Shown in pieces: positions 25,951 to 37,403 of a stretch of DNA of 64,000 nt (within the stretch, counting starts at the first letter, position 1; each line of letters begins with the position of its first letter). The translations under genes were made by a program, and so were the position numbers. The notes below the pieces were generated by a model. The model ran no database searches. It was given only the letters and a program-made list of their open reading frames with translations, and was not told the DNA's origin. Source of the DNA: Vreelandella neptunia (lineage in GTDB: Bacteria > Pseudomonadota > Gammaproteobacteria > Pseudomonadales > Halomonadaceae); assembly GCF_034479615.1 (NCBI RefSeq), contig NZ_CP140255.1, forward strand, positions 4,774,001-4,838,000. Direction: 5' to 3'.

Positions 25951-26622
25951 CTACGAGTAGAGTCGCCCGACCAACTCGGTGCGGTTGGTGACATCGAATT
26001 TACGATACAGATGATCGAGGTGGGTCTTGATCGTGGAGGGCGCAATGCCGAGCTCACGCGCCATGACCTTATTGCTCAAACCCTGGCGTACCAGCGGCAA
26101 AAGCTGCGCCTCACGCTCGGTCAACGGCCTGTGGTGGAGTTCGGCCTGCGCCGGGGCAATCTCACTGGCGCGGGTCGAGACGGCCAGCTGCAGCATTTCC
26201 TGAAGCGATTGCAGCGTGTTCAGTTCCTGGGGGGTAAAACTCCCGAAGCGTGATTTGCGCAGCAACGACATGCCCATCACCGGGCGGTTCCGGCGGTAGA
26301 ACATGACTTCGGTTACATCCACGACATCGTGCTGGCTCAGAAACGTCTGATACCCCTCATTACGCTGTTTCGATTGAAGCGCCTGGGCATCGCGCAGTGA
26401 CACGACACCTCGGCCGATCTGCTGGCAGTAACCGGGCTGAAGCGGGTCAAGGTGCCGGTAGCGGCGCAGGTAGCTGTCGTGCATCTGCGTGGGATCGCCG
26501 TAAAGCTGGAAATCAAACGCACTCAGTCCGTCGTCGATATGGTAGAACGCTGCCAGCGAAGCGGGCACGGCACGGGTGAAGGCGTTCAGACAGTAGACAC
26601 CCAGTTCCTGGGGAGACTGCAT
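25951..26622 (-). CDS. LuxR family transcriptional regulator of the amine cluster
   Basis: A 223-residue regulator with a C-terminal LuxR helix-turn-helix (LTEREAQLLPLVRQGLSNKV and IAPSTIKTHLDHLYRKF) preceded by a roughly 150-residue sensing domain without a clear receiver or autoinducer signature; a GAF-like ligand domain is possible. The ATG at 26622 is chosen because upstream codons lie inside a leader with a long inverted repeat. It is the last gene of the MoaF-SDR-SDR-LuxR minus-strand group, so it is the likely pathway-specific regulator. Confidence 0.88.
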   Translation of the reverse strand: MQSPQELGVYCLNAFTRAVPASLAAFYHIDDGLSAFDFQLYGDPTQMHDSYLRRYRHLDPLQPGYCQQIGRGVVSLRDAQALQSKQRNEGYQTFLSQHDVVDVTEVMFYRRNRPVMGMSLLRKSRFGSFTPQELNTLQSLQEMLQLAVSTRASEIAPAQAELHHRPLTEREAQLLPLVRQGLSNKVMARELGIAPSTIKTHLDHLYRKFDVTNRTELVGRLYS

Positions 26623-26627
26623 GGCTA

Positions 26628-26670
26628 GCCGACTCCATGTTGATTGATACCTCCAACATAGCGAGTCGGC
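26628..26670. repeat. Bulged inverted repeat in the LuxR gene leader
   Basis: The arms are GCCGACTC plus ATGTTG on the left and CAACAT plus GAGTCGGC on the right, with short bulges and an 11-base loop. It ends six bases before the start codon of the LuxR gene. It could be an autoregulatory operator or a leader hairpin that limits translation. Confidence 0.55.
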
Positions 26671-26715
26671 CGTGTGCAAGCAACGGAAATTTGTTGCCCA
26701 ATGACCCATAGTGGC

Positions 26716-27486
26716 TCAGTCGAGCGCGGTCACGCTTTCCGGCAGCAGAGCGCCGCCATCGACGATGATGGTCTGGCCAGTGATGTACTTGGCCAGATCA
26801 GAGCCCAGAAACAGCATGGCGTTGGCGATGTCCTCCGGTGCCCCCAGGTGGCCCAGCGGAATGCCGCGCTCGAGGCGCTGGCTGTGCTCGTCGTCACCGA
26901 GGTTGTCCATCGCCGGGGTGCGGATCATGCCCGGCTCGACGCCGTTGATGCGGATGCCCAAACCGCCCATTTCCAGTGCGGTGTTGCGGATGAAGCCGTT
27001 AACCGCGGCCTTGGACGCGGCATAATGGGTCAGCCCCGGATACGCGACCCGATTGCCGGTGACCGAGGAAGTACACAGGATCACGCCCTGCCCCTTCTGC
27101 TTGAAAGAAGGCAGCAGCGCTTGTGTCATCCAGAACAGCGACTGCACGTTAACGGCGAAGGTGCGTTCGACCTGGTCAAGGGTGAGATCTTCAAAGGGCG
27201 TGAGCGGAAAGTAGCCCGCGTTGTGCACCAGCACGTCGATGGGGTCGCTGACCGCTATCATGGCGCGTGTGGTGGCCTCATCGGAGAGATCCACGGCGTA
27301 AGCCTGAACCCGATGACCCTCAGCCGTGAGCTTTTCAGCTACCCGCGTGGCCTGGTCGCCGTTGATGTCGGCCAGCGTGACGCGGGCACCGGCCTCGGCA
27401 AAACGGGTCACGATAGCCTCGCCGATGCCCTGGGCACCGCCGGTGACCAGTACGTGCTGGCCGCTGTAATCGATACGAATACTCAT
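26716..27486 (-). CDS. SDR family oxidoreductase (first of two)
   Basis: A 256-residue classical short-chain dehydrogenase. The cofactor motif is LVTGGAQGIGEA (residues 13-24), with the NAG motif at 89-91 (VHNAGY) and the catalytic triad Ser141, Tyr155, Lys159 in HYAASKAA. Asp40 after the second strand (VTLADI) suggests NAD preference. It probably oxidises an alcohol or hydroxy intermediate of the amine pathway. A very strong hairpin lies between it and the upstream SDR gene. Confidence 0.93.
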   Translation of the reverse strand: MSIRIDYSGQHVLVTGGAQGIGEAIVTRFAEAGARVTLADINGDQATRVAEKLTAEGHRVQAYAVDLSDEATTRAMIAVSDPIDVLVHNAGYFPLTPFEDLTLDQVERTFAVNVQSLFWMTQALLPSFKQKGQGVILCTSSVTGNRVAYPGLTHYAASKAAVNGFIRNTALEMGGLGIRINGVEPGMIRTPAMDNLGDDEHSQRLERGIPLGHLGAPEDIANAMLFLGSDLAKYITGQTIIVDGGALLPESVTALD

Positions 27487-27507
27487 GAACGGACTCCATT
27501 GATCCGG

Positions 27508-27547
27508 GACAGGGCAACCGGGCCATGGGCAGCCCGGTCGCCCTGTC
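27508..27547. repeat. Strong hairpin between the two SDR genes
   Basis: Two 16-base arms (27508-27523 and 27532-27547) are inverted with a single mismatch and an eight-base loop. No T-run follows on the minus strand, so simple rho-independent termination is unlikely. It fits an mRNA-stabilising or processing hairpin inside the operon, or a repeated operator. Confidence 0.6.
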
Positions 27548-27552
27548 GTCTC

Positions 27553-28341
27553 CTAGAGGGCCTCGAAAGCGAGGGTGGGGGTGTCGACGATATGCGAGCC
27601 GCCGTCGGCCATGATCATGCTGCCGGTAATGATGGCGGAGGCCGGGCTGATCAGAAAGTGACAGACCTCGGCGATTTCGTGGGCACTGGCTGGCCGCCGC
27701 AGGGGCACGTGCTGCGTCACACGGGCGTAGGCATCATCGAGGGACTCGCTGTAGTGCGCCATCAGCGGCTGCATTTCTTCATCGGCCATGGGCGTTCGAA
27801 TCCACCCCGGGCAGACACAGTTGACCCTCACGCCCTGAGGGCCGAAGTCACGAGCCATGGAACGTGTCAGACCCACAATCGCGTGCTTGGCGGTGGTGTA
27901 GCCGCAGACCTCACCACCGGCCTGAAACGAAGCCAACGACCCCAGCAACACCATGGTGCCCTGCTGCTTGATCAGGTGTGGCAGACAGGCGCGTGCGCTG
28001 TAGAAGGCGGTATCCAGATTGAGACGCATCGATTGATGCCAGTCATCGTCGGACATCTCGGTGGCCGTGCCGAGGCCGTGGCCCCCCGCGCTGCAGATCA
28101 GGCTGTCGATCCGGCCATAGGCCTCGAGAATGCGCTGGCAGAACCCCTCCCACTCGGTGGCGCTGGCGGCGTCGCCGGCGAGCACCAGCCCGCCGGTGTC
28201 CGCCGCCAGCGCCTCAAGAGGTGCCTTGCGACGTCCAATCAATACGACGTTATGGCCAAGCGCGGCCTGCTGACGCGCGCAGGCTTCACCCACGCCGGTG
28301 CCGGCGCCGGTGATGACGACGGTTTTGGTATCAGAGGTCAT
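27553..28341 (-). CDS. SDR family oxidoreductase (second of two)
   Basis: A 262-residue short-chain dehydrogenase with VVITGAGTGVGEA (residues 8-20), SAGG at 84-87, and the catalytic residues Ser135, Tyr148, Lys152 (CGYTTAKHA). Arg37-38 after the second strand (VVLIGRRKA) hints at NADP use, unlike its neighbour, so the two may act in different steps. The ATG at 28341 overlaps the MoaF stop by 11 bases, indicating coupling; a longer frame upstream to 28461 runs inside the MoaF gene and is not credible. Confidence 0.92.
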   Translation of the reverse strand: MTSDTKTVVITGAGTGVGEACARQQAALGHNVVLIGRRKAPLEALAADTGGLVLAGDAASATEWEGFCQRILEAYGRIDSLICSAGGHGLGTATEMSDDDWHQSMRLNLDTAFYSARACLPHLIKQQGTMVLLGSLASFQAGGEVCGYTTAKHAIVGLTRSMARDFGPQGVRVNCVCPGWIRTPMADEEMQPLMAHYSESLDDAYARVTQHVPLRRPASAHEIAEVCHFLISPASAIITGSMIMADGGSHIVDTPTLAFEAL

Positions 28342-29149
28342 CGGGGTACTCCGTATCGGCCAGGCGCTGACAGTAAGAAGCCATCGGGAAGTTGGCCAGC
28401 GGCGCGTCTTCGGTATCACCAACGCCGAAGATCTTGCCGTCGCTGCGGTGATTCTGTTCATCGATCATGACGATGCCGAGCGTCGGGACGATCTTCTCGC
28501 GCCAGATGAACAGATAAAGCTCATCGGCAATCTTGTAATAGTGGCAGGCATCAGTGTCGCACAGCCCCTGCTCCACGCCTTTCAGGCAGTGCCAGGTGTA
28601 GAAGTTCTCGTTCAGATAGGTATGTTCGTACACCTCGGTCGGACTGTAACGGTAGAGGTTGCGCACCCCGATCAGCTCGTCGGTCTTGGCATGCGGGCAG
28701 GCGCCGTCGCTGTAGGGTTTGTTCACCGCGCCGTGGCTGATGTCGACCTTGACGTCGGTCAGCGGGCGGCCGCCCAGTGCGCGCTCATAGAGGCCGGTTT
28801 TGATGACATCAAACGTGGGCAAGGTGCCGATGACCTGAGTGTAGCTGTCAGTCAGGGTATCCAGCACCACGGTGTACGAAGTCGCCGGACGGGTGCGTTC
28901 ATCCAGCCAGTCAAGCAGATAGACACGTTCACGTAACGATGTGATGCGCACCTTGACCGCCTCGCCGCCATCGATGGCCAGCTGATCCTGATCGAACTCG
29001 ATACGGCGAACACTGCCGTCGGCGGCGTGCAGTTCAACCTGCTTGCCGGTGAGGTCTGCCGAGTTGTCCAGCGCATAGGAACCCGTCGCGAAGCCCTTTT
29101 CAAGGCCAGCAACCGAGATCCAGTCAGTGTGGGAAGGAGTTGTTGTCAT
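28331..29149 (-). CDS. MoaF family protein
   Basis: A 272-residue protein matching the MoaF family, with the C-terminal block RYSPTEVYEHTYLNENFYTW and WHCLKGVEQGLCDTD, and the IADELYLFIWREKIVPTL strand set typical of a lipocalin-like fold. As I recall, MoaF is named from the monoamine regulon of Klebsiella, not from molybdopterin synthesis, although it is often annotated as a molybdenum cofactor protein. It may bind an amine-derived intermediate. The ATG at 29149 follows AGGAGA. It is the first gene of its operon and divergent from the APC permease. Confidence 0.8.
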   Translation of the reverse strand: MTTTPSHTDWISVAGLEKGFATGSYALDNSADLTGKQVELHAADGSVRRIEFDQDQLAIDGGEAVKVRITSLRERVYLLDWLDERTRPATSYTVVLDTLTDSYTQVIGTLPTFDVIKTGLYERALGGRPLTDVKVDISHGAVNKPYSDGACPHAKTDELIGVRNLYRYSPTEVYEHTYLNENFYTWHCLKGVEQGLCDTDACHYYKIADELYLFIWREKIVPTLGIVMIDEQNHRSDGKIFGVGDTEDAPLANFPMASYCQRLADTEYPDDL

Positions 29150-29412
29150 GGGGTTGTCTCCTGAGACAGGGGTAAGGTGTAAGGCAACCAATGGCCACGT
29201 ACATTTTTATCGTCGGCGCTGTTAAGCCGCCTGGGTATCCCCCGGATGGGGGAGGCCGGCCGTGATACAGGAGAGTTAAGACAGAAGTAGGCAGGCAGGG
29301 GAAAATTTCTGGCAGAAGAGAACAAGAATGGTCGGTGAGTAAGGTGCAGATTGGATATCAGGTTGTCCGTGTCAACCAAACAAGAATTCAACCGGCCAGG
29401 AGATTACTCATC
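29150..29412. promoter_or_regulatory. Divergent promoter region between moaF-like and permease genes
   Basis: This 263-base spacer must carry the promoters for the minus-strand MoaF-SDR-SDR-LuxR group and the plus-strand permease-P450 group. It contains a compact hairpin TCCCCC-GGAT-GGGGGA at 29238-29253 directly followed by GGCCGGCC. I see no unambiguous -35/-10 pair. It is the best candidate for LuxR-regulator binding. Confidence 0.5.
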
Positions 29413-30807
29413 ATGCTCAACACCTCGAAGGCGGGCCCCGCGCCCCAGGTAAGCGCCCCTGCGCGTCAACACATCGGTTTCAAGACCATGATCGCGATCT
29501 GTGTGGGAACCGTGGTGGTGCAGGGCGCCATGGCATCGGCATTGATGGGCTTTGGCATCGGCGGCTTGAGTTTTCTGGCCGCCATGCTGGTGGCCACCTT
29601 GCTTGCCGTCTGCAACGCCATGTCCTTCTCGGAACTTTCGCTGATGTATCCGCAGGCGGGCACGCTTGCCACCTATACTCAAAAGGCCATCGGTCATTTC
29701 CCGGCCATCGTCTCGGTGTTTGCAGGCTACGTGGTGGTGGCCATCTTCGCGATTCCTGCCGAATTTCTGCTGGTGGATGCCCTGCTGCAGACGCTGTTCC
29801 CCGAAATGCTGCCGTCGCATCTGGTACCAATCCTGCTGCTGGCGACGCTGGCCGTGCTCAATATTCTCGGCACCGACGTCTTCGCCAAGCTTCAGAACGT
29901 GTTCACCTTCGCCATGATCGTTGCCATCTTACTCGTGGGCGCCACCGCCCTGCTCCAGCCGCCGTCGCCGGAGGTGGCTCAGGCCGCCGCAGGCATCGAC
30001 TGGGGCATCGGAGGCATTGTCGACGGCAGCTTTATCGGCCTGGTCGCCCTGGCCATGTGGATGTTCGTCGGCTGTGAGTTCATCTGCCCGATGATCAACG
30101 ATATTCGTCAGCCGGAAAAGCGGATTCCCCGCGCTATGTTCCTGTCGCTGGGCATCATCTTTGTGCTGTTCTCGATCTTCTGCCTCGGCGCCGGCCACTA
30201 TCTTTCCGTTGAGACCTTGACCACCTCGCCCCTGCCGTATCTAGATCTGGTCAATAGCGTGTTTGGCAAAGCGGGCCTGATTATTGCCACCGTAATGGGC
30301 GTGACCGCGACCTGCAGCACGGTCAATACCGTGCTTGCCGCCGTACCGCGCATGCTCTCGGGCATGGCCGATAACGGCCAGGCGTTTTCGATCATGGGCA
30401 AGATGCACCCGCGCTATAACACGCCCTGGGTCGGCATCACCTTTCTGGCGCTGGGCGTGGTCGTGCCTTTTTTGCTGATCGAACCCGATCAGATCATCGC
30501 GCTGGTGATCGCTGCGGCGACCAGTTGGCTGTTTGCCTACATCGTCGCGCATATCGATGTGATGGTGCTGCGTCGTCGCCGCCCCGAGCATCGCCGCCCT
30601 TACCGCACGCCCTTTTACCCGCTGCCGCAGATTCTGGGCATCATCGGCATGGCCTACGTGGCAGCCAACGCTTCCCCATCGCCTGAGATGACCACCCTGA
30701 TCTATACGCTACTGGGCGTGGTGCTGGGTATTGTCAGCCTGATTGCCATCGTCTGGGTCAAGTTCAAGATGAACAAGGGGCTGTTCGAGCCGGACCTGAG
30801 CGATTAG
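29413..30807 (+). CDS. APC superfamily amino acid/amine permease
   Basis: A 464-residue protein with about twelve membrane helices. The first helix (MIAICVGTVVVQGAMASALMG) has the glycine-broken pattern of the amino acid-polyamine-organocation superfamily. It probably imports the amine or amino acid that the cluster degrades, by proton or sodium symport. The ATG at 29413 is about ten bases after AGGAG; longer starts upstream lack this. The P450 fusion gene follows after 68 bases, on the same transcript. Confidence 0.92.
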   Translation: MLNTSKAGPAPQVSAPARQHIGFKTMIAICVGTVVVQGAMASALMGFGIGGLSFLAAMLVATLLAVCNAMSFSELSLMYPQAGTLATYTQKAIGHFPAIVSVFAGYVVVAIFAIPAEFLLVDALLQTLFPEMLPSHLVPILLLATLAVLNILGTDVFAKLQNVFTFAMIVAILLVGATALLQPPSPEVAQAAAGIDWGIGGIVDGSFIGLVALAMWMFVGCEFICPMINDIRQPEKRIPRAMFLSLGIIFVLFSIFCLGAGHYLSVETLTTSPLPYLDLVNSVFGKAGLIIATVMGVTATCSTVNTVLAAVPRMLSGMADNGQAFSIMGKMHPRYNTPWVGITFLALGVVVPFLLIEPDQIIALVIAAATSWLFAYIVAHIDVMVLRRRRPEHRRPYRTPFYPLPQILGIIGMAYVAANASPSPEMTTLIYTLLGVVLGIVSLIAIVWVKFKMNKGLFEPDLSD

Positions 30808-30827: not shown

Positions 30828-30861
30828 GGGGCGCCGGGCGTAAGCACCGTCTAAGTGCCCC
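30828..30861. repeat. Hairpin between permease and P450 fusion genes
   Basis: GGGGCGC (30828-30834) can pair with GTGCCCC (30855-30861), including one G-T pair, enclosing a 20-base loop. It ends a few bases before the ribosome site of the P450 gene and could regulate its translation or mRNA stability. Confidence 0.4.
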
Positions 30862-30875
30862 TTCATGGAGATCCT

Positions 30876-33800
30876 ATGAATAAGCCAATGAAAACTCGCC
30901 CCGCCCCCGTGGCAAACTGGGTCGATCTCAAGACACTGTATGACGATCCGTTTCCAATCTACGAACGCCTGCGGCGCGAGGGCGGGGTTCATTGGGTGCC
31001 CAGCGTCAACCGCTATCTGATCACCAGCTACGACGCCGTGATTACCACCGAGCACGACCAGGAAACCTATTCAGCCAACGAAACGGATTCGCTCCAGATC
31101 CGCGCCATGGGGCATTCGATGCTGCGCCGCGACGACCCGGAGCACTACCGCGAGCGCCGCCAGTGGCAGAGCGTGTTCAAGCCCAATGCGGTTAAAAACG
31201 TCTGGACGCAGACCTTTCATGAAAAGAGCCGCGAACAGTTGACCCGCTTCATCGACAAGGGGCCGGGGGCCGATCTGATCTGGGATTTTTCAGCGCCCTT
31301 TGCCGCCGAATGCCTGAGATCACTGCTCGGGCTCTACAACGCCTCGGCGGAAGATCTTCAGCGCTGGTCGCAGACGCTGATTGATGCAACCGGCAACTAC
31401 GGCGACGACCCGGACGTTTGGGCCGCGGGCAAGCGCTCTTTCGATGAAGTGGATGTCGCCCTCGATGAGATGCTCGAGTGGCACCTTCACAACCGCGACC
31501 ACTCCCTTCTCTCCTCGCTGCTCTCCTCCCCCGAGGATCAGATGCCGCTGGAAAAGATTCGCGCCAACATCAAGATGAGCATCGGCGGCGGTTTGAACGA
31601 GCCCCGGGACGCCCTGGGCGTGGCGGCTTGGGCGATGTTGACCCACCCCGACCAGCGCCGGACGGTGGAACGCGACCCGAGACTATGGTCGACGGTGTTC
31701 GATGAAACCATTCGCTGGGTAGCGCCCATCGGGCTTTATTCACGCCAGACTACGAAACGCACCGTGCTGGCCGGCGTCGAGCTGCCGGAAGGGGCACGGC
31801 TAGGCATTTGTATTCTCTCGGCCAACCGCGATGAATCGATCTGGGATCGCGCGGACAAATTCGATATTTACCGCGAGGTCAAACCGCACCTGGCGTTCAG
31901 CAAGGGCACGCATGTGTGTCTGGGCGCCCGGGCGGCGCGGGCCGAAGTGGCCGAAGTGGCACTACCGCTGCTGTTCGATCACTTGAAAGGGCTCGACCTC
32001 CACCCCGACCGCGATCCCACCATCGGCGGTTGGGTCTTCCGTGGCATGCTCTCGCTGCCGGTGACCTGGCGCGACGTGAAGCCGCTCGCCAAGGGGCGCG
32101 TGCCCGTTTCTACGGGTGGGCCAACGCCCTCGGCAACGGAAACCGAGGCGACCCCGCACGTCGCCATTGTCGGCTCTGGGCCGGCGGGCTGCTTTACGGC
32201 AAAAGAAGTCCAGCGCCGCATGCCCGGCGCCCATATCGATCTGTTTGACCGCCTCCCCGTACCCTACGGTCTGCTGCGCTACGGCGTGGCAGGCGATCAT
32301 CAGGGCACCAAAGCCGTCTCACGCCAGTTTGATTGCCTGTTCGATGCGCCGAACGTGCGTTTTATCGGCAATACGACCATCGGCCAGCAGGTGTCTTTCG
32401 ATGCGCTGCGCACGAACTACGACGCCGTGGTGCTTGCCTCCGGTGTACGTGCGGATCGGCCGCTGGAGATTCCCGGTGACCTGCTTACGGGCGTAGTGGG
32501 TGCGGGCAGTATTACCCGCCGACTCAACGGCCACCCGGACGAGACCGAGACGCCGACGCTTGGTCGGCGCGTGGCAATCTTGGGCCAGGGGAATGTAGCC
32601 ATCGACGTGTTGCGGCTGCTGTCGATTCGCGCCGCCGAACTCGAGGGCAGCGACATCGACGACGCCGTTCACGGGAAGCTGACACGTGAGATCGATACGC
32701 TGCACATCATCGGCCGCTCGAGCGCGGAGAAGGCCCGCTTCGACCCGGTGATGATCCGCGAGCTGGGCGGCTTTTCAGCTATTCGGCATCGCCTTCACGG
32801 TGTCGATCTGGATAGCGTGCCGGAAGGCAAGGATGCCCGGCTGGACGCGCTGCGTACGCTACCCGGGGCAGACAGCGTCGACCTCGAGGGCGAGCCGCGG
32901 ATGATGGTCGAGTGGTGGTTCGAGACAGTGCCCAAACGCATCGATGGGCAGGCGCAGGTCGAAGGTATCACTCTGCGTCATGGCGGCGAGACCGTCGCGC
33001 TGGCGCTGGATTCGGTCATAACCGCCATCGGTTTCGTGCCCGACCCGGAGGACGCCATAGCACACGCGCTCGCCGAGTATCCGGCGGTATCTGAGACCGG
33101 CCGCGTCGAGGCGGGGCTCTACCTGGCCGGCTGGTTGCGCCGCGGCGCCCGAGGCACGATTCCCGATCAGCGCACCGACGCACGGGCACTGGCTGGCGTG
33201 ATTGGCGCGGATATCGCGGCAGGTGAGGTGCACTGCACTCGCCAGGGGCTTAGCCCTCATGAAGAGGCCACCGACATCGACGGCTGGCGGCGTATCGACC
33301 ACCTAGAGCGTACCCAGACCTCTCCAGGGCGGGTACGCACCAAGCTGGCCACGCTGGAGGCGCTTTTGGCGTCGGCGCGGGATGAGTCGCTGGTGGTCGA
33401 GCGTGCGTCGCACCTCAATACGGGTGACGGCGACAGCCTGGGCGACCTGGCGGTCAGCATTCTATTCGGCACCGAGTCCGGCAATGCCGAGCTGGTCGCC
33501 GAGGAGCTCGAGCAGGCCCTTGATGGGCGCTGCGCGGTTGACGTGGCCGATCTGAGCGATGTTGACCCGCACTCGCTCGACCCGACCCGGTTCTACCTCA
33601 TCGTCTGCTCAACCTACGGCGATGGCGAGGTGCCAGGCGGCGCCCAAGATTTCTACGCGACGCTGCGCGATGATGCTCCCGACCTATCCGGCGTGCGTTT
33701 TGCGAGCATGGGGCTGGGCGACAGTAGCTACACCAGAACCTACTCACGCGGCGGCGAACTGCTCACCGAGGCGCTACTGGCCTGTGGCGCAACGCGAATC

Positions 33801-33914
33801 GGCGAGTTTGGCCGTCACGATGCCAGCGGATCGCTTGCGGCCTCTGAGGTCGCTCTGGATTGGGCAGAGGGCGTACTGAACCTGGTGGCGAGCGAAGAAC
33901 CATCGCCGCCATGA
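30876..33914 (+). CDS. Self-sufficient P450: P450-adrenodoxin reductase-like-flavodoxin fusion
   Basis: A 1012-residue, three-module monooxygenase. Residues 1-400 are a cytochrome P450 with ExxR (ETIR, 277-280) and the heme loop FSKGTHVCLGARAAR (Cys348). Residues 425-785 are an adrenodoxin-reductase/FprA-type flavoprotein: FAD motif VAIVGSGPAG (429-438), the DRLPVPYGLLRYGVAGDH stretch, NADPH motif LGQGNVAID (569-577), and GWLRRGARGTI (752-762). Residues 855-1003 are a flavodoxin/CPR-FMN-like domain (FGTESGNAE 864-872, STYGDGE 912-918, GLGDSSY 946-952). Electrons should pass NADPH, FAD, FMN, heme within one chain. The I helix reads GGGLNEPRD in place of the usual AGxxT. The ATG at 30876 follows GGAG. 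Substrate unknown; neighbours suggest an amine. Confidence 0.92.
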   Translation: MNKPMKTRPAPVANWVDLKTLYDDPFPIYERLRREGGVHWVPSVNRYLITSYDAVITTEHDQETYSANETDSLQIRAMGHSMLRRDDPEHYRERRQWQSVFKPNAVKNVWTQTFHEKSREQLTRFIDKGPGADLIWDFSAPFAAECLRSLLGLYNASAEDLQRWSQTLIDATGNYGDDPDVWAAGKRSFDEVDVALDEMLEWHLHNRDHSLLSSLLSSPEDQMPLEKIRANIKMSIGGGLNEPRDALGVAAWAMLTHPDQRRTVERDPRLWSTVFDETIRWVAPIGLYSRQTTKRTVLAGVELPEGARLGICILSANRDESIWDRADKFDIYREVKPHLAFSKGTHVCLGARAARAEVAEVALPLLFDHLKGLDLHPDRDPTIGGWVFRGMLSLPVTWRDVKPLAKGRVPVSTGGPTPSATETEATPHVAIVGSGPAGCFTAKEVQRRMPGAHIDLFDRLPVPYGLLRYGVAGDHQGTKAVSRQFDCLFDAPNVRFIGNTTIGQQVSFDALRTNYDAVVLASGVRADRPLEIPGDLLTGVVGAGSITRRLNGHPDETETPTLGRRVAILGQGNVAIDVLRLLSIRAAELEGSDIDDAVHGKLTREIDTLHIIGRSSAEKARFDPVMIRELGGFSAIRHRLHGVDLDSVPEGKDARLDALRTLPGADSVDLEGEPRMMVEWWFETVPKRIDGQAQVEGITLRHGGETVALALDSVITAIGFVPDPEDAIAHALAEYPAVSETGRVEAGLYLAGWLRRGARGTIPDQRTDARALAGVIGADIAAGEVHCTRQGLSPHEEATDIDGWRRIDHLERTQTSPGRVRTKLATLEALLASARDESLVVERASHLNTGDGDSLGDLAVSILFGTESGNAELVAEELEQALDGRCAVDVADLSDVDPHSLDPTRFYLIVCSTYGDGEVPGGAQDFYATLRDDAPDLSGVRFASMGLGDSSYTRTYSRGGELLTEALLACGATRIGEFGRHDASGSLAASEVALDWAEGVLNLVASEEPSPP

Positions 33915-34098: not shown

Positions 34099-35388
34099 TT
34101 AGAACCTCCCGAACCGGTAAGGCCTTGGATCAATGATCGGCTCGTTGTTCATGATCAGATCCGCGGCGAGCTGGCCGGCCGCCGGCGAGGTGCCAAAGCC
34201 GTGGCCGGAGAAGCCGGAAGCCAGGGTCAGCCCCGGCACGCCGGGCACCGCATCAATGACCGGGTTGGAGTCCGGTGTGATGTCGATCATGCCTGCCCAG
34301 GCTTCTTCGATGGTCGCCTTTTCGAACACCGGCCATGCCGCGGACAGATTGTGGTGGGCATCACGGTTGAGCATTTGATTGATCGGCGGATCCAGGGTGC
34401 GCACGCGTTCGAAGGGCGAGTTGCCGTTTTTCCAGCGCCGTGGCAGCGCGAGATCCCGCCAAAAGTGCTTGCCCAGCGATATCCGCAAAAGCCCCCGCTG
34501 GGCGCGCAGTGCGATTAAATACTTGGAGCCGACCAGCAGATGATCCAGCGTCAGCGGGGCATCAAGTGCACCACGCTGGGTCACGATGAAGCCGCCATCC
34601 TTGTGCTTTCGAAAGGAGAAATCCGGCCCGCCAACGGCGCTGTTGGTGGGGCCTTCCATGGCGCCGGTTCGAAACACCGACAGAATCAGCGGCAAGGTGG
34701 GCAGGGAGATGCCGATATTGCCCAGAAACCGCCGGGACCACATGCCGCCAGCCAGCAGTACCTGATCGCAGCGAATTTCGCCACGCTCGGTTACCACCCC
34801 ACTCACCTGCCCGCCGGTGCGGGTAATATTGCGCACTGCACAGTGTTCGACGATGACCGCGCCCCGTGCAATGGCCGCCCGAGCGATGGCGCTGGAGGCA
34901 AGCGTAGGCTCGGCGTAGCCGTCAGATGGCGTGAAGATGGCGCCAGCCCAGTCACCGCGACCGCCCGGCACCTGCGCGTCGATCTCGCGTGCGCTCAACA
35001 GTCGGGAGTCCAGCGACAGCGCCGCGACCGAATCGAGCCAGGCTTCATGCACGGCGAGCTGATCGGGCGTGCGCGACAAAAACATGATGCCCGACTGGCG
35101 ATACCCCACGTCGCTGCCGGTGCGCTCAGCCATGGTGGCCCATAGCCGGTCGGAAGCCAGCGCCAGCGGCACATCCTCGCCGTGGCGGCTGGTCTTGCGA
35201 ATCCAGCCCAGGTTGCGGGAGGACTGCTCACCGGCGATGCGGCCCTTTTCCAGTACCGTGACGGGCACGCCGCGCTCGGCGAGCGTCAGGGCAGCGGTCA
35301 GGCCGATAATGCCGCCACCGATGATGACCACGGTGGTCGAGGCGGGAAAGTCGTTGGAGGTCTCGACGGGTGCGATAGTCGGTGCCAT
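34099..35388 (-). CDS. FAD-dependent amine/amino-acid oxidoreductase (DAO family)
   Basis: A 429-residue member of the D-amino acid oxidase / sarcosine oxidase superfamily. The FAD Rossmann motif is VVIIGGGIIGL near the N-terminus, and the C-terminal FAD contact is GFSGHGFGTSPAAGQLAADL. Such enzymes oxidise the C-N bond of amines or N-methyl amino acids to an imine, releasing peroxide or passing electrons on. RidA and cyclodeaminase-family genes directly upstream fit an imine product. The ATG at 35388 follows AGGA; the longer frame to 35460 runs through an intercistronic hairpin. Confidence 0.9.
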   Translation of the reverse strand: MAPTIAPVETSNDFPASTTVVIIGGGIIGLTAALTLAERGVPVTVLEKGRIAGEQSSRNLGWIRKTSRHGEDVPLALASDRLWATMAERTGSDVGYRQSGIMFLSRTPDQLAVHEAWLDSVAALSLDSRLLSAREIDAQVPGGRGDWAGAIFTPSDGYAEPTLASSAIARAAIARGAVIVEHCAVRNITRTGGQVSGVVTERGEIRCDQVLLAGGMWSRRFLGNIGISLPTLPLILSVFRTGAMEGPTNSAVGGPDFSFRKHKDGGFIVTQRGALDAPLTLDHLLVGSKYLIALRAQRGLLRISLGKHFWRDLALPRRWKNGNSPFERVRTLDPPINQMLNRDAHHNLSAAWPVFEKATIEEAWAGMIDITPDSNPVIDAVPGVPGLTLASGFSGHGFGTSPAAGQLAADLIMNNEPIIDPRPYRFGRF

Positions 35389-35414
35389 GAACGCGTCCTG
35401 ATCGGTTGATCGTT

Positions 35415-35454
35415 CAACGCAGTATGCCCGGGTCAGGCCGGCCATACCGCGTTG
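35415..35454. repeat. Hairpin between RidA-like and FAD oxidase genes
   Basis: CAACGCAGTATG (35415-35426) and CATACCGCGTTG (35443-35454) are inverted arms matching at 11 of 12 positions, with a GC-rich 16-base spacer. It lies 26 bases before the oxidase start codon on the minus strand. Confidence 0.55.
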
Positions 35455-35481
35455 GATCAAGTTATAGGGCCGAACGACGCC

Positions 35482-35907
35482 TCACTGAGCGGAGGTGTCG
35501 ATCCGGATGGTCTCGGCGCTGCCGGCGCCTCGGTAAGCGGTCACTTCCAGCTCGACCTTGTAGACCTCGGCGCCGAGCGGCGGGCAGGTGACGGTAATGA
35601 CCGGGTCGACGCCGCGCATGGTTTCGCCGAACAGGGTCATGACCGTTTCAGTGTCGGCTGGGTTCTGAATGAAAATCCTGGCAGATACCACGTCGGAAAG
35701 GTCGCTATCGACGGCTGAAAGCCCGCGTTCGATGTTGGCGAAGACCTGCTTCAACTGCTCACTGACGTCGTCTGGAATCTCCTTGGTGTCCGGGTTACGC
35801 CCGGCAGTGTTGGAGACAAGGATCCAGTTGTCGACGGCCACCACGCGTGAATAGCTGGCGTGTTCCTCGAATTTGGAGCCGGTTTTGACCTTGGTGATCG
35901 TAGTCAT
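35482..35907 (-). CDS. RidA/YjgF family protein of the amine cluster
   Basis: A 141-residue RidA-superfamily protein, divergent from the canonical RidA at 15.4 kb. It keeps the fold (VAVDNWILVSNTAGRNPDT, FANIERGLSAVDSDLSDVVSARIFI) and an acidic C-terminal strand (VYKVELEVTAY), but the canonical arginine region reads DPVITVTCPPLGAEVYKVE, so the RidA active-site arginine seems to be absent. It may hydrolyse a different imine or act as a binding subunit. The ATG at 35907 is preferred over one at 35928. Confidence 0.85.
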   Translation of the reverse strand: MTTITKVKTGSKFEEHASYSRVVAVDNWILVSNTAGRNPDTKEIPDDVSEQLKQVFANIERGLSAVDSDLSDVVSARIFIQNPADTETVMTLFGETMRGVDPVITVTCPPLGAEVYKVELEVTAYRGAGSAETIRIDTSAQ

Positions 35908-35938
35908 TAGAGAACGCTCGCTTTGCAATCAATGAGAA

Positions 35939-35989: not shown

Positions 35990-37129
35990 TTATTTCAGCG
36001 CGGGCTCATCCCACAGGTTCAGCTTGACGCCGATGCCCTGCTCCACGGCCTTGCGGTAGACGACCGTGGCCCAGGCAACGTCTTCGACCGGCATGCCGCC
36101 GACCGACATCATGATGATCTCCTCGTCGCTCTGACGACCCGGGCTGTCACCGGAGACGATAGCGCCCAGGTCTTCCAGCGCGCTGGCCTCGAGGGTGCCG
36201 GCATGGAGCATGTCCATGAACTTCACGCCGACCAGCGGAATCACGTTATGGGCGGGCTTGGGCACTTCCTCGTACCAGGCTTCGTAAAGGCCGGTGTCAT
36301 CGAGCACCTTGCGGATATCCGGCGCTTCCATGCCGGCATCGAAGTTGCACGGCGCCGGCATTGCCAGAAAGGCGCCGGGCTTGACCCACTCGCGCTTTAC
36401 CATCGGGTAGAGGTCGGGATTGCCGACTTCGCCGGAGGCGCAGTAGGTCACGATGTCGGCATCGCGCACCACCGCTTCCTCGGAATCGACGACCTGGAGG
36501 TTGGTGACCTGCGGGTAGTGCTCCTTCACCCACTCGATGAAGCCGTTGATGTTCTTCTCGCTGCGCCCCTTGATCTTGATGGTGTCGATCTCCGGGCAGA
36601 CCGCCATGAACGCAGCCACGCTGGTCCGGCCCATTACCCCTGGGCCCAGCAGGCCGATAACGCGGGAATCCTTGCGGGCCAGATGGCGAGCGCCGACACC
36701 CGGCACGGCGCCGGTGCGGTAGGCCGACAGCAGGTTGGCCGACATGTACGCCAAGGGTGCAGCGGTGTCCGGGTCGGTCAGCGTGAACATCAGGATGGAG
36801 CGGGGCAGGCCCTTTTCCCGGTTGGCGATGTTAGAGCCGTACCACTTCACACCGGAGGTGCAGAAGCTGCCGCCCAGATAGGCCGGCATCGCCATCATGC
36901 GGCGATCGGCAGTCGGTTTCGGCATGGTGGAAAACGGCGACTCCTCTGGGAACATGATCATCGCGCCGTGGGAGTCGTTGTTGGGCCCAGCCATGCGGTA
37001 ATCGCCGATGTGAAGCAGGTGGAAGACCTCTTCCATGGTGTCCACACAGGCGGCCATATCGGTCACGCCGGCACGAATCATGTCCTGCTCGGAGAGGTAG
37101 ATAAAATCAATCTTGGTGTTGTTGCCCAT
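35990..37129 (-). CDS. Ornithine cyclodeaminase/mu-crystallin family protein
   Basis: A 379-residue protein of the ornithine cyclodeaminase/mu-crystallin family. It has the NAD(P) motif IGLLGPGVMGRTSVAAF and the upstream family stretch SANLLSAYRTGAVPGVGARHLA. I recall close relatives annotated as tyramine oxidase subunit B, which links it to aromatic amine breakdown; the family can reduce cyclic imines or deaminate amino acids. It leads the cyclodeaminase-RidA-oxidase minus-strand operon. The ATG at 37129 is preferred to an upstream one at 37183 because family N-termini begin near KIDFIYLSEQDM. Confidence 0.85.
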   Translation of the reverse strand: MGNNTKIDFIYLSEQDMIRAGVTDMAACVDTMEEVFHLLHIGDYRMAGPNNDSHGAMIMFPEESPFSTMPKPTADRRMMAMPAYLGGSFCTSGVKWYGSNIANREKGLPRSILMFTLTDPDTAAPLAYMSANLLSAYRTGAVPGVGARHLARKDSRVIGLLGPGVMGRTSVAAFMAVCPEIDTIKIKGRSEKNINGFIEWVKEHYPQVTNLQVVDSEEAVVRDADIVTYCASGEVGNPDLYPMVKREWVKPGAFLAMPAPCNFDAGMEAPDIRKVLDDTGLYEAWYEEVPKPAHNVIPLVGVKFMDMLHAGTLEASALEDLGAIVSGDSPGRQSDEEIIMMSVGGMPVEDVAWATVVYRKAVEQGIGVKLNLWDEPALK

Positions 37130-37403
37130 GATGGAGTCCTCGATGCGTTCTTGTTGGAATGCGGTGCATTTCATATTGCGCATCTCAAGGCCAGGGCGTT
37201 AGCACAGATCGGCAACTCGGTCGTGGGCATCGACCAACGGCTAAAAGCACGAACGGTTTGCTGGGCGGGGAGGGACGCTGTCAGCGTTCGAGTCAGAGCT
37301 GCGTCAAAAATAGCCTGGATCTACATCCCTGACTTCCTGCCAACATGTGATCCATCACATGAACTTCCCTCATGAAGTGCTCCATATCTAAACAACACGC
37401 CAG
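37130..37403. other. Intergenic spacer between amine cluster and toxin-antitoxin pair
   Basis: This spacer should contain the promoter of the cyclodeaminase-RidA-oxidase operon on the minus strand. It contains the palindromic-looking TGTGATCCATCACATGAAC near 37346-37364, whose core TGTGATccATCACA resembles a CRP/FNR-type site (inferred by eye). I see no gene in it. Confidence 0.35.

Follow-up and report, generated by a model that had tools for sequence, protein, structure and literature searches.

A cytochrome P450 fused in one chain to an adrenodoxin reductase-like module and a flavodoxin: a candidate self-sufficient demethylase of methoxylated phenylacetates

Introduction

Ten classes of cytochrome P450 (P450) system have been distinguished, in which class III replaces the ferredoxin with a flavodoxin, class VI fuses P450 and flavodoxin, and classes VII and VIII use other reductases (PMC11173547; sources with PMC numbers are cited from excerpts throughout). 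Two papers from 2025 name classes VII and VIII as the fused, self-sufficient P450s (PMC11889516, PMC12126322). Here we describe an open reading frame of Vreelandella neptunia (30876..33914, +; 1012 residues plus stop) that joins a P450, an adrenodoxin reductase-like flavin adenine dinucleotide (FAD) reductase and a flavin mononucleotide (FMN) flavodoxin. Coordinates refer to the window, the whole 64,000-nucleotide stretch that was analysed (contig NZ_CP140255.1, positions 4,774,001 to 4,838,000).

The nearest solved relative of the heme module is CYP1232A24 of Arthrobacter sp. (structure 6g71), which is reported (Klenk 2019) to demethylate methoxyphenylacetates to 3,4-dihydroxyphenylacetate. 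Unlike the three-module fusion, its solved chain of 405 residues is a P450 only; its gene cluster is described as holding two P450s, a flavodoxin and a flavodoxin reductase (PMC9687028). The P450cin system passes electrons along the same chain, from reduced nicotinamide adenine dinucleotide phosphate (NADPH) through FAD and FMN to heme, but divides it among three separate proteins, P450cin, cindoxin and cindoxin reductase (PMC9687028). In XplA/XplB (class VI), the flavodoxin is N-terminal on the P450, the reductase is separate and the reaction is a reductive denitration (PMC8081977). CYP116B enzymes (class VII) are self-sufficient with an N-terminal heme, and CYP116B234 acts on a phenylacetate (PMC11889516). 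Their donors are an FMN reductase and a 2Fe-2S ferredoxin, modules that the fusion lacks. CYP102 (class VIII) likewise combines heme, FAD and FMN in a self-sufficient chain, but with a diflavin reductase of the cytochrome P450 reductase (CPR) type, whose FAD module differs from that of the fusion in fold and order. Another unusual fusion, the KU-64 cyclohexanecarboxylate P450, runs from a 2Fe-2S ferredoxin through an FAD reductase, said to resemble biphenyl dioxygenase reductase, to a C-terminal P450, and has no flavodoxin (PMC9687028).

Judged by its sequence, the V. neptunia fusion is a class III chain in one polypeptide, unlike CYP102, CYP116B and XplA, because a P450, an adrenodoxin reductase-like FAD module and a cindoxin-like FMN module share one frame. 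We propose, with a probability of roughly 0.6, that it is a P450 monooxygenase carrying the whole P450cin-type chain and demethylating methoxylated phenylacetates. The initial annotation knew of no described enzyme with the order heme, adrenodoxin reductase, FMN; our literature search, limited by licence and thus not proof of absence from print, also found none.

Results

The open frame spans 30855-33914 (+) from a GTG start, and the ATG at 30876, with GGAG directly upstream, yields the 1012-residue protein. Pfam places p450 at residues 273-358 (7e-12), Pyr_redox_2 at 428-578 (5.6e-12) and Flavodoxin_1 at 862-985 (9.5e-21), all exceeding their curated cut-offs. No ferredoxin-NADP reductase-type or 2Fe-2S module is matched, even with E allowed up to 0.1. 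These matches bear out the initial annotation, which had read the frame as one intact chain of these three modules.

The P450 module (residues 1-400; 30876..32075, +) has the P450 fold and the heme-thiolate loop of the superfamily, with heme Cys348 within HLAFSKGTHVCLG. It is 60.2% identical over 389 residues to CYP1232A24; membership of a P450 subfamily requires over 55% identity to a member, with formal naming left to the nomenclature committee, and the module is thus CYP1232A-like. The middle module and its C-terminal tail (residues 423-839; 32142..33392, +) resemble adrenodoxin reductase and FprA, both in phmmer (bovine adrenodoxin reductase 1cjc, E 1.7e-41; FprA 1lqt, 9.1e-40) and in Foldseek; biphenyl dioxygenase reductase may share this glutathione-reductase fold. 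The flavodoxin module (residues 855-1012; 33438..33911, +) is nearest to cindoxin, the P450cin partner (best phmmer match 4oxx, E 1.2e-28). XplA/XplB is homologous as well: the flavodoxin and reductase modules of Rhodococcus sp. DN22, which we take to be Xpl (the reductase being XplB), are 40% and 42% identical to those of the fusion.

Many FAD, NADPH and FMN motif residues are invariant in an alignment of 40 of the 50 fused proteins described below, and these motifs and Cys348 lie where the initial annotation had put them. Linker lengths, counted between chosen alignment columns, range from 13 to 75 and from 33 to 56 residues, and the cofactor motifs are kept. P450 residues 237-245 read GGGLNEPRD, with eight of nine positions invariant in the 40 rows; we take this stretch, placed by reference to P450cam, to be the I-helix site at which most P450s carry the acid-alcohol motif. 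CYP1232A24 has the same stretch.

Foldseek on an AlphaFold2 model of the full chain ranked 6g71, FprA (1lqu) and adrenodoxin reductase (1e6e) first, followed by GcoA, for which some structure entries are deposited as aromatic O-demethylase, and SyoA; the best 50 matches listed include no flavodoxin. The initial annotation had proposed reading cofactor distances from a predicted structure. With a mean predicted local distance difference test score of 80.9 and a predicted template modelling score (pTM) of 0.56, the individual modules of the model are believable and their mutual placement is not.

The electron donors, an FAD reductase and an FMN flavodoxin, are by homology those of class III, but they and the P450 occupy a single frame and not three separate polypeptides. 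Class VI (XplA) differs in that the flavodoxin of the fusion is C-terminal and its reductase lies inside the chain, class VII (CYP116B) in that Pfam finds no FMN/2Fe-2S phthalate-oxygenase-type match, and class VIII (CYP102) in that the FAD module is of the adrenodoxin reductase/FprA kind and not a CPR-type diflavin. The order fits none of the ten classes in the excerpted text of PMC11173547. To this extent the distinct class envisaged in the initial annotation is supported, but its parts are of kinds already known: by sequence, the P450 groups with CYP1232A24, and the FAD and FMN modules also occur as separate genes.

Relatives were the best 80 of 222 matches (73 distinct loci) from a scan of one genome per species across 84,980 species. 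A single open frame encodes P450, reductase and flavodoxin modules in 49 of these loci, 8 of them halomonad-type and 41 actinobacterial (including L066, which has no phylum label in the tree); with the window there are 50 fused rows. A contig end cuts three further loci (L072, L084, L089), the frame is split in L088 and L090, and the remaining loci carry the P450 or a reductase-flavodoxin pair as separate genes. Since 49 loci of other genomes keep the same modules in one frame, chance read-through is rejected, and a frame artefact or a single-genome peculiarity is ruled out on the same count; the order is real. A frame broken in close homologues, which the initial annotation had considered, is confined to a few copies: P450 and reductase-flavodoxin occupy two adjacent or overlapping frames in L088, L090, G584:C41 and G683:C33, handles of which some may denote the same genomes. 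Real separation and sequence error are both possible for these.

The nine halomonad-type copies (the window's and L039-L044, L052 and L059) span the window, other Halomonas, Larsenimonas, Kushneria and Terasakiispira. L059 is 98% identical to the window's copy. Rarity rules out a common halomonad gene: a whole-genome search of 275 genomes from the window's family found the fusion in 9, the window's included and always in one frame, and two of the other eight carriers belong to its genus. No fusion is among the matches listed for 36 sampled genus-mates, and none besides the window's was found among 369 genomes of the class. In Brevibacterium, 15 of 57 genomes have the fusion in one frame, one more has two adjacent frames and one has a reductase-flavodoxin match only. 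In Microbacterium, 4 of 198 have one frame, and one genome each has a split copy, an unfused P450 match only, and the rear part only, the last probably reflecting a contig end. A search for fused relatives on plasmids returned 1214 records with a match, all below 60% identity; in the four records that span at least 80% of the query, the modules are divided among separate genes or frames.

Homoprotocatechuate (hpa) genes lie within 7 kb of the fusion in seven of the nine halomonad-type copies (L039-L044 and L052, but not the window or L059). At these seven loci a phenol-hydroxylase-type gene is followed by the fusion and then, in six of them, by a tripartite ATP-independent periplasmic (TRAP) transporter or, in L044, by a porin-like gene; beside them lie a phenylacetaldehyde-dehydrogenase-like gene and a run that we name hpaF-E-D-G-H, from which L043 lacks D. 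At L040, HpaD (429.9 bits; cut-off 321.4), HpaE (758.4; 638.35), the phenol monooxygenase subfamily and the TRAP large permease pass NCBIfam cut-offs, and the phenylacetaldehyde dehydrogenase falls below its own. HpaD, the 3,4-dihydroxyphenylacetate 2,3-dioxygenase, is above cut-off in 8 of 9 halomonad-type carriers versus 2 of 36 sampled genus-mates without the fusion, among the matches listed (Fisher p 1.8e-6, a test that ignores relatedness and genus). A check of the carrier genomes for 41 of the 49 other fused loci found HpaD above cut-off in 40 of 41, and in the window's genome as well. HpaD- and HpaE-like genes are likewise found close to unfused P450 relatives in L096, L097 and L110.

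The window's genome has HpaE above cut-off too, and an hpa cluster of the same order about 600 kb from the fusion, without a P450. At the place where relatives carry the fusion, between the phenol hydroxylase and the TRAP gene, there is a gene with HTH_38 and rve domains (L127:5225-6214, -; C1 about 4198200-4199200 of that genome), by its make-up a transposase. No match to this transposase was found inside the window, and a P450 remnant in the hpa cluster was rejected (tblastn, best E 0.13). We read this as a P450 lost from the hpa cluster, with a copy present in the amine cluster described below.

Quick trees without bootstrap were built for the P450 (74 rows) and the reductase (72 rows); the flavodoxin tree was short and weakly resolved. 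Together with four relatives whose frame is cut or split, the 50 fused rows cluster as a single group in both trees (Shimodaira-Hasegawa-like approximate likelihood-ratio test 91 for the P450 tree, 99 for the reductase tree). CYP1232A24 adjoins the fused group in the former (98 for the larger group), on a long branch that makes its place unsure, and four separate reductase-flavodoxin pairs of Leucobacter and Brevibacterium adjoin it in the latter (83). Because both trees nest the nine halomonad-type rows inside the fused group, with Brevibacterium and kin (98 for P450, 99 for reductase), one fusion event in Actinomycetota and one transfer into halomonads would fit as the plain reading of these trees.

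Unfused P450 relatives in L026, L036 and L037 adjoin a 2Fe-2S protein and an FAD oxidoreductase, which suggests that electron donors were swapped during this history. Reductase-flavodoxin pairs encoded as separate genes are no rarity: an FAD-dependent oxidoreductase plus a flavodoxin is annotated in 12 of 40 plasmid records listed. In L021 three individual genes, arranged as in the fusion, encode P450, reductase and flavodoxin, with only 22% identity in the P450. In L095, L096 and L097 (Pseudonocardiaceae), two unfused P450 relatives lie about 1.6 kb apart. In Arthrobacter terricola (L063, 5655-10942), a further P450 (42%) and a free-standing flavodoxin line up with the fusion, an arrangement reminiscent of the cluster with two P450s described for CYP1232A24. 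Of the 41 actinobacterial fused loci, 24 encode a small HtaA-kind protein close to the fusion (for example L061:6406-6933, +; L068:6509-6973, +; L085:5571-5975, -), detected with a profile made from three of these proteins, which match PF04213. HtaA is known from heme uptake, and the protein may serve heme supply to the P450.

In the window, the fusion (G+C 64.2% versus 57.0% for the window) follows an APC-type permease gene on the same strand (29335..30807, +; PF13520) that ends 68 bp before it; the two possibly form an operon. It faces a DAO-family FAD oxidase, a candidate amine oxidase (34099..35460, -; PF01266), a Rid-family protein (35482..35928, -; PF01042) and a tyramine oxidase subunit B family protein of the ornithine cyclodeaminase superfamily (35990..37183, -; NF004848, 697.4 bits versus a cut-off of 362). 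On the other side are a MoaF protein, divergent from the permease (28331..29191, -; PF17409, PF10703), two short-chain dehydrogenase/reductase (SDR) oxidoreductases (26716-27486 and 27553-28461, together 26716..28461, -) and a LuxR-type regulator (25951..26709, -; PF00196). The nearby SDR and DAO genes resemble the fusion in G+C. L059 has the same neighbours as the window. In L044, a relative of the window's DAO oxidase (L044:15378, -; 87% identical) stands about 5 kb after the fusion and might connect the hpa and amine contexts.

Discussion

Cofactor loading, electron path, self-sufficiency, substrate and product of the fusion are matters that we infer from homology and gene linkage. NADPH would reduce the FAD of the middle, adrenodoxin reductase-like module, single electrons would pass to the FMN of the C-terminal flavodoxin module, and this module would swing on the variable linkers to the N-terminal heme. 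The heme module would then take the O-methyl group off methoxylated phenylacetates such as homovanillate, forming formaldehyde and 3,4-dihydroxyphenylacetate, which the hpa meta-cleavage pathway would use. In the window's genome, the substrate may enter as a methoxylated phenethylamine, because the gene adjoins an amine-oxidation cluster. The hpa linkage and the structural neighbours together point to aryl O-demethylase activity, and CYP1232A24, 60% identical in its P450, identical in the I-helix stretch and neighbouring in the P450 tree, probably catalyses the same chemistry as the fusion. O-demethylation of methoxylated phenylacetates is our best guess, with hydroxylation as its main rival.

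Several observations weigh against this reading. The fusion's neighbours in the window are amine genes and not hpa genes. Within the hpa clusters, HpaG and HpaF of L040 and HpaH of L043 fall below NCBIfam cut-offs (HpaF passes Pfam CHMI), and L043 has the fusion and HpaE/F/G/H-like genes with no HpaD above cut-off in its genome. HpaD lies in the flanks, up to 7 kb, of only 4 of 41 actinobacterial fused loci (L050, L064, L075, L076). Among the matches listed, it occurs in 164 of 198 Microbacterium genomes, so that co-presence with HpaD was rejected as general proof; because HpaD is common there, co-occurrence says little and distance is therefore the evidence, HpaD lying no more than 8 kb away in 5 of the 6 genomes that carry the fusion, a split copy or its rear part. 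The pTM of 0.56 means that the model gives no FAD-FMN-heme distances. In the I helix, the acid-alcohol pair is replaced by Asn241-Glu242, invariant in the 40 aligned rows. Finally, the phenol-hydroxylase-type FAD enzyme of the hpa cluster could be an alternative maker of the catechol.

The same self-sufficient P450 might instead hydroxylate, for example turning 4-hydroxyphenylacetate or phenylacetate into 3,4-dihydroxyphenylacetate in place of a missing HpaB. HpaB_N is a domain of the usual enzyme making 3,4-dihydroxyphenylacetate, and in a check of 18 genomes it was found in none of the 9 halomonad-type carriers; among the enzymes looked for, the catechol in halomonads could then come from the fusion or the phenol hydroxylase, and the absence of HpaB_N supports demethylation as well. 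Hydroxylation would suit the hpa linkage equally, and the self-sufficient CYP116B234 turns 2-hydroxyphenylacetate into homogentisate (PMC11889516). We nonetheless consider hydroxylation unlikely. The next structural neighbours are GcoA and SyoA, and a phenol hydroxylase already stands within the hpa cluster. The nearest solved relative, CYP1232A24, is reported to be a methoxyphenylacetate demethylase. HpaB is moreover present in 3 of the 9 actinobacterial carriers checked (L061, L062, L063), a point that counts against this rival and against demethylation alike.

Somewhat more doubtful is that the fusion acts mainly on arylalkylamines, that is methoxylated or hydroxylated phenethylamines imported by the adjacent permease, before amine oxidation, at least in the window's genome. 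The permease 68 bp upstream and the adjoining tyramine-oxidase-like cluster, shared with L059, argue for such a role, as does the DAO oxidase relative downstream of the hpa-linked fusion in L044. Yet the six other hpa-linked halomonad-type loci, with modules 78-91% identical to the window's, have none of these amine genes in the flanks examined (E up to 1e-15).

It is improbable that the fusion is not self-sufficient in practice and is a shared electron hub, whose reductase and flavodoxin modules supply other P450s or oxygenases as well, or even for the most part. Such sharing would account for L063, where the second P450 and stand-alone flavodoxin have no second such reductase within 18 kb, and for reductase-flavodoxin pairs without an annotated P450 that share gene runs with ring-hydroxylating oxygenases (L024, L025, L035); but the heme module is kept in the chain in 49 loci, and the P450 and reductase trees agree on main groups. 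In L035 the Rieske oxygenase genes are adjacent to the pair and in L024 and L025 about 7 kb away, and these pairs may drive Rieske oxygenases.

A reductive P450 is scarcely credible: XplA, which is reductive, has also lost the acid-alcohol motif (PMC8081977), the Asn-Glu replacement holds in 40 of 40 aligned rows, the flavodoxin donor is as in XplA/XplB and the reductase module is 42% identical to that of Rhodococcus sp. DN22, but the hpa linkage points to oxygenation, and CYP1232A24, reported to be an O-demethylase, shares the GGGLNEPRD stretch.

Demethylation of methoxylated phenylacetates by a class III chain in one polypeptide thus remains the reading that we prefer. Taken further, the fusion may represent an additional, undescribed class of self-sufficient P450, with an adrenodoxin reductase-like FAD module between heme and FMN, that formed once in Actinomycetota, passed into halomonads and serves specifically to channel methoxylated phenylacetates into the homoprotocatechuate pathway; we put the odds of this fuller account at about even. 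If it is true, complete P450 fusions would have arisen on more occasions, and from different components, than is commonly described. The family would then provide a demethylase in a single chain that acts on lignin-type aromatic acids, along with a naturally occurring FAD-FMN module to which other P450s could be coupled.

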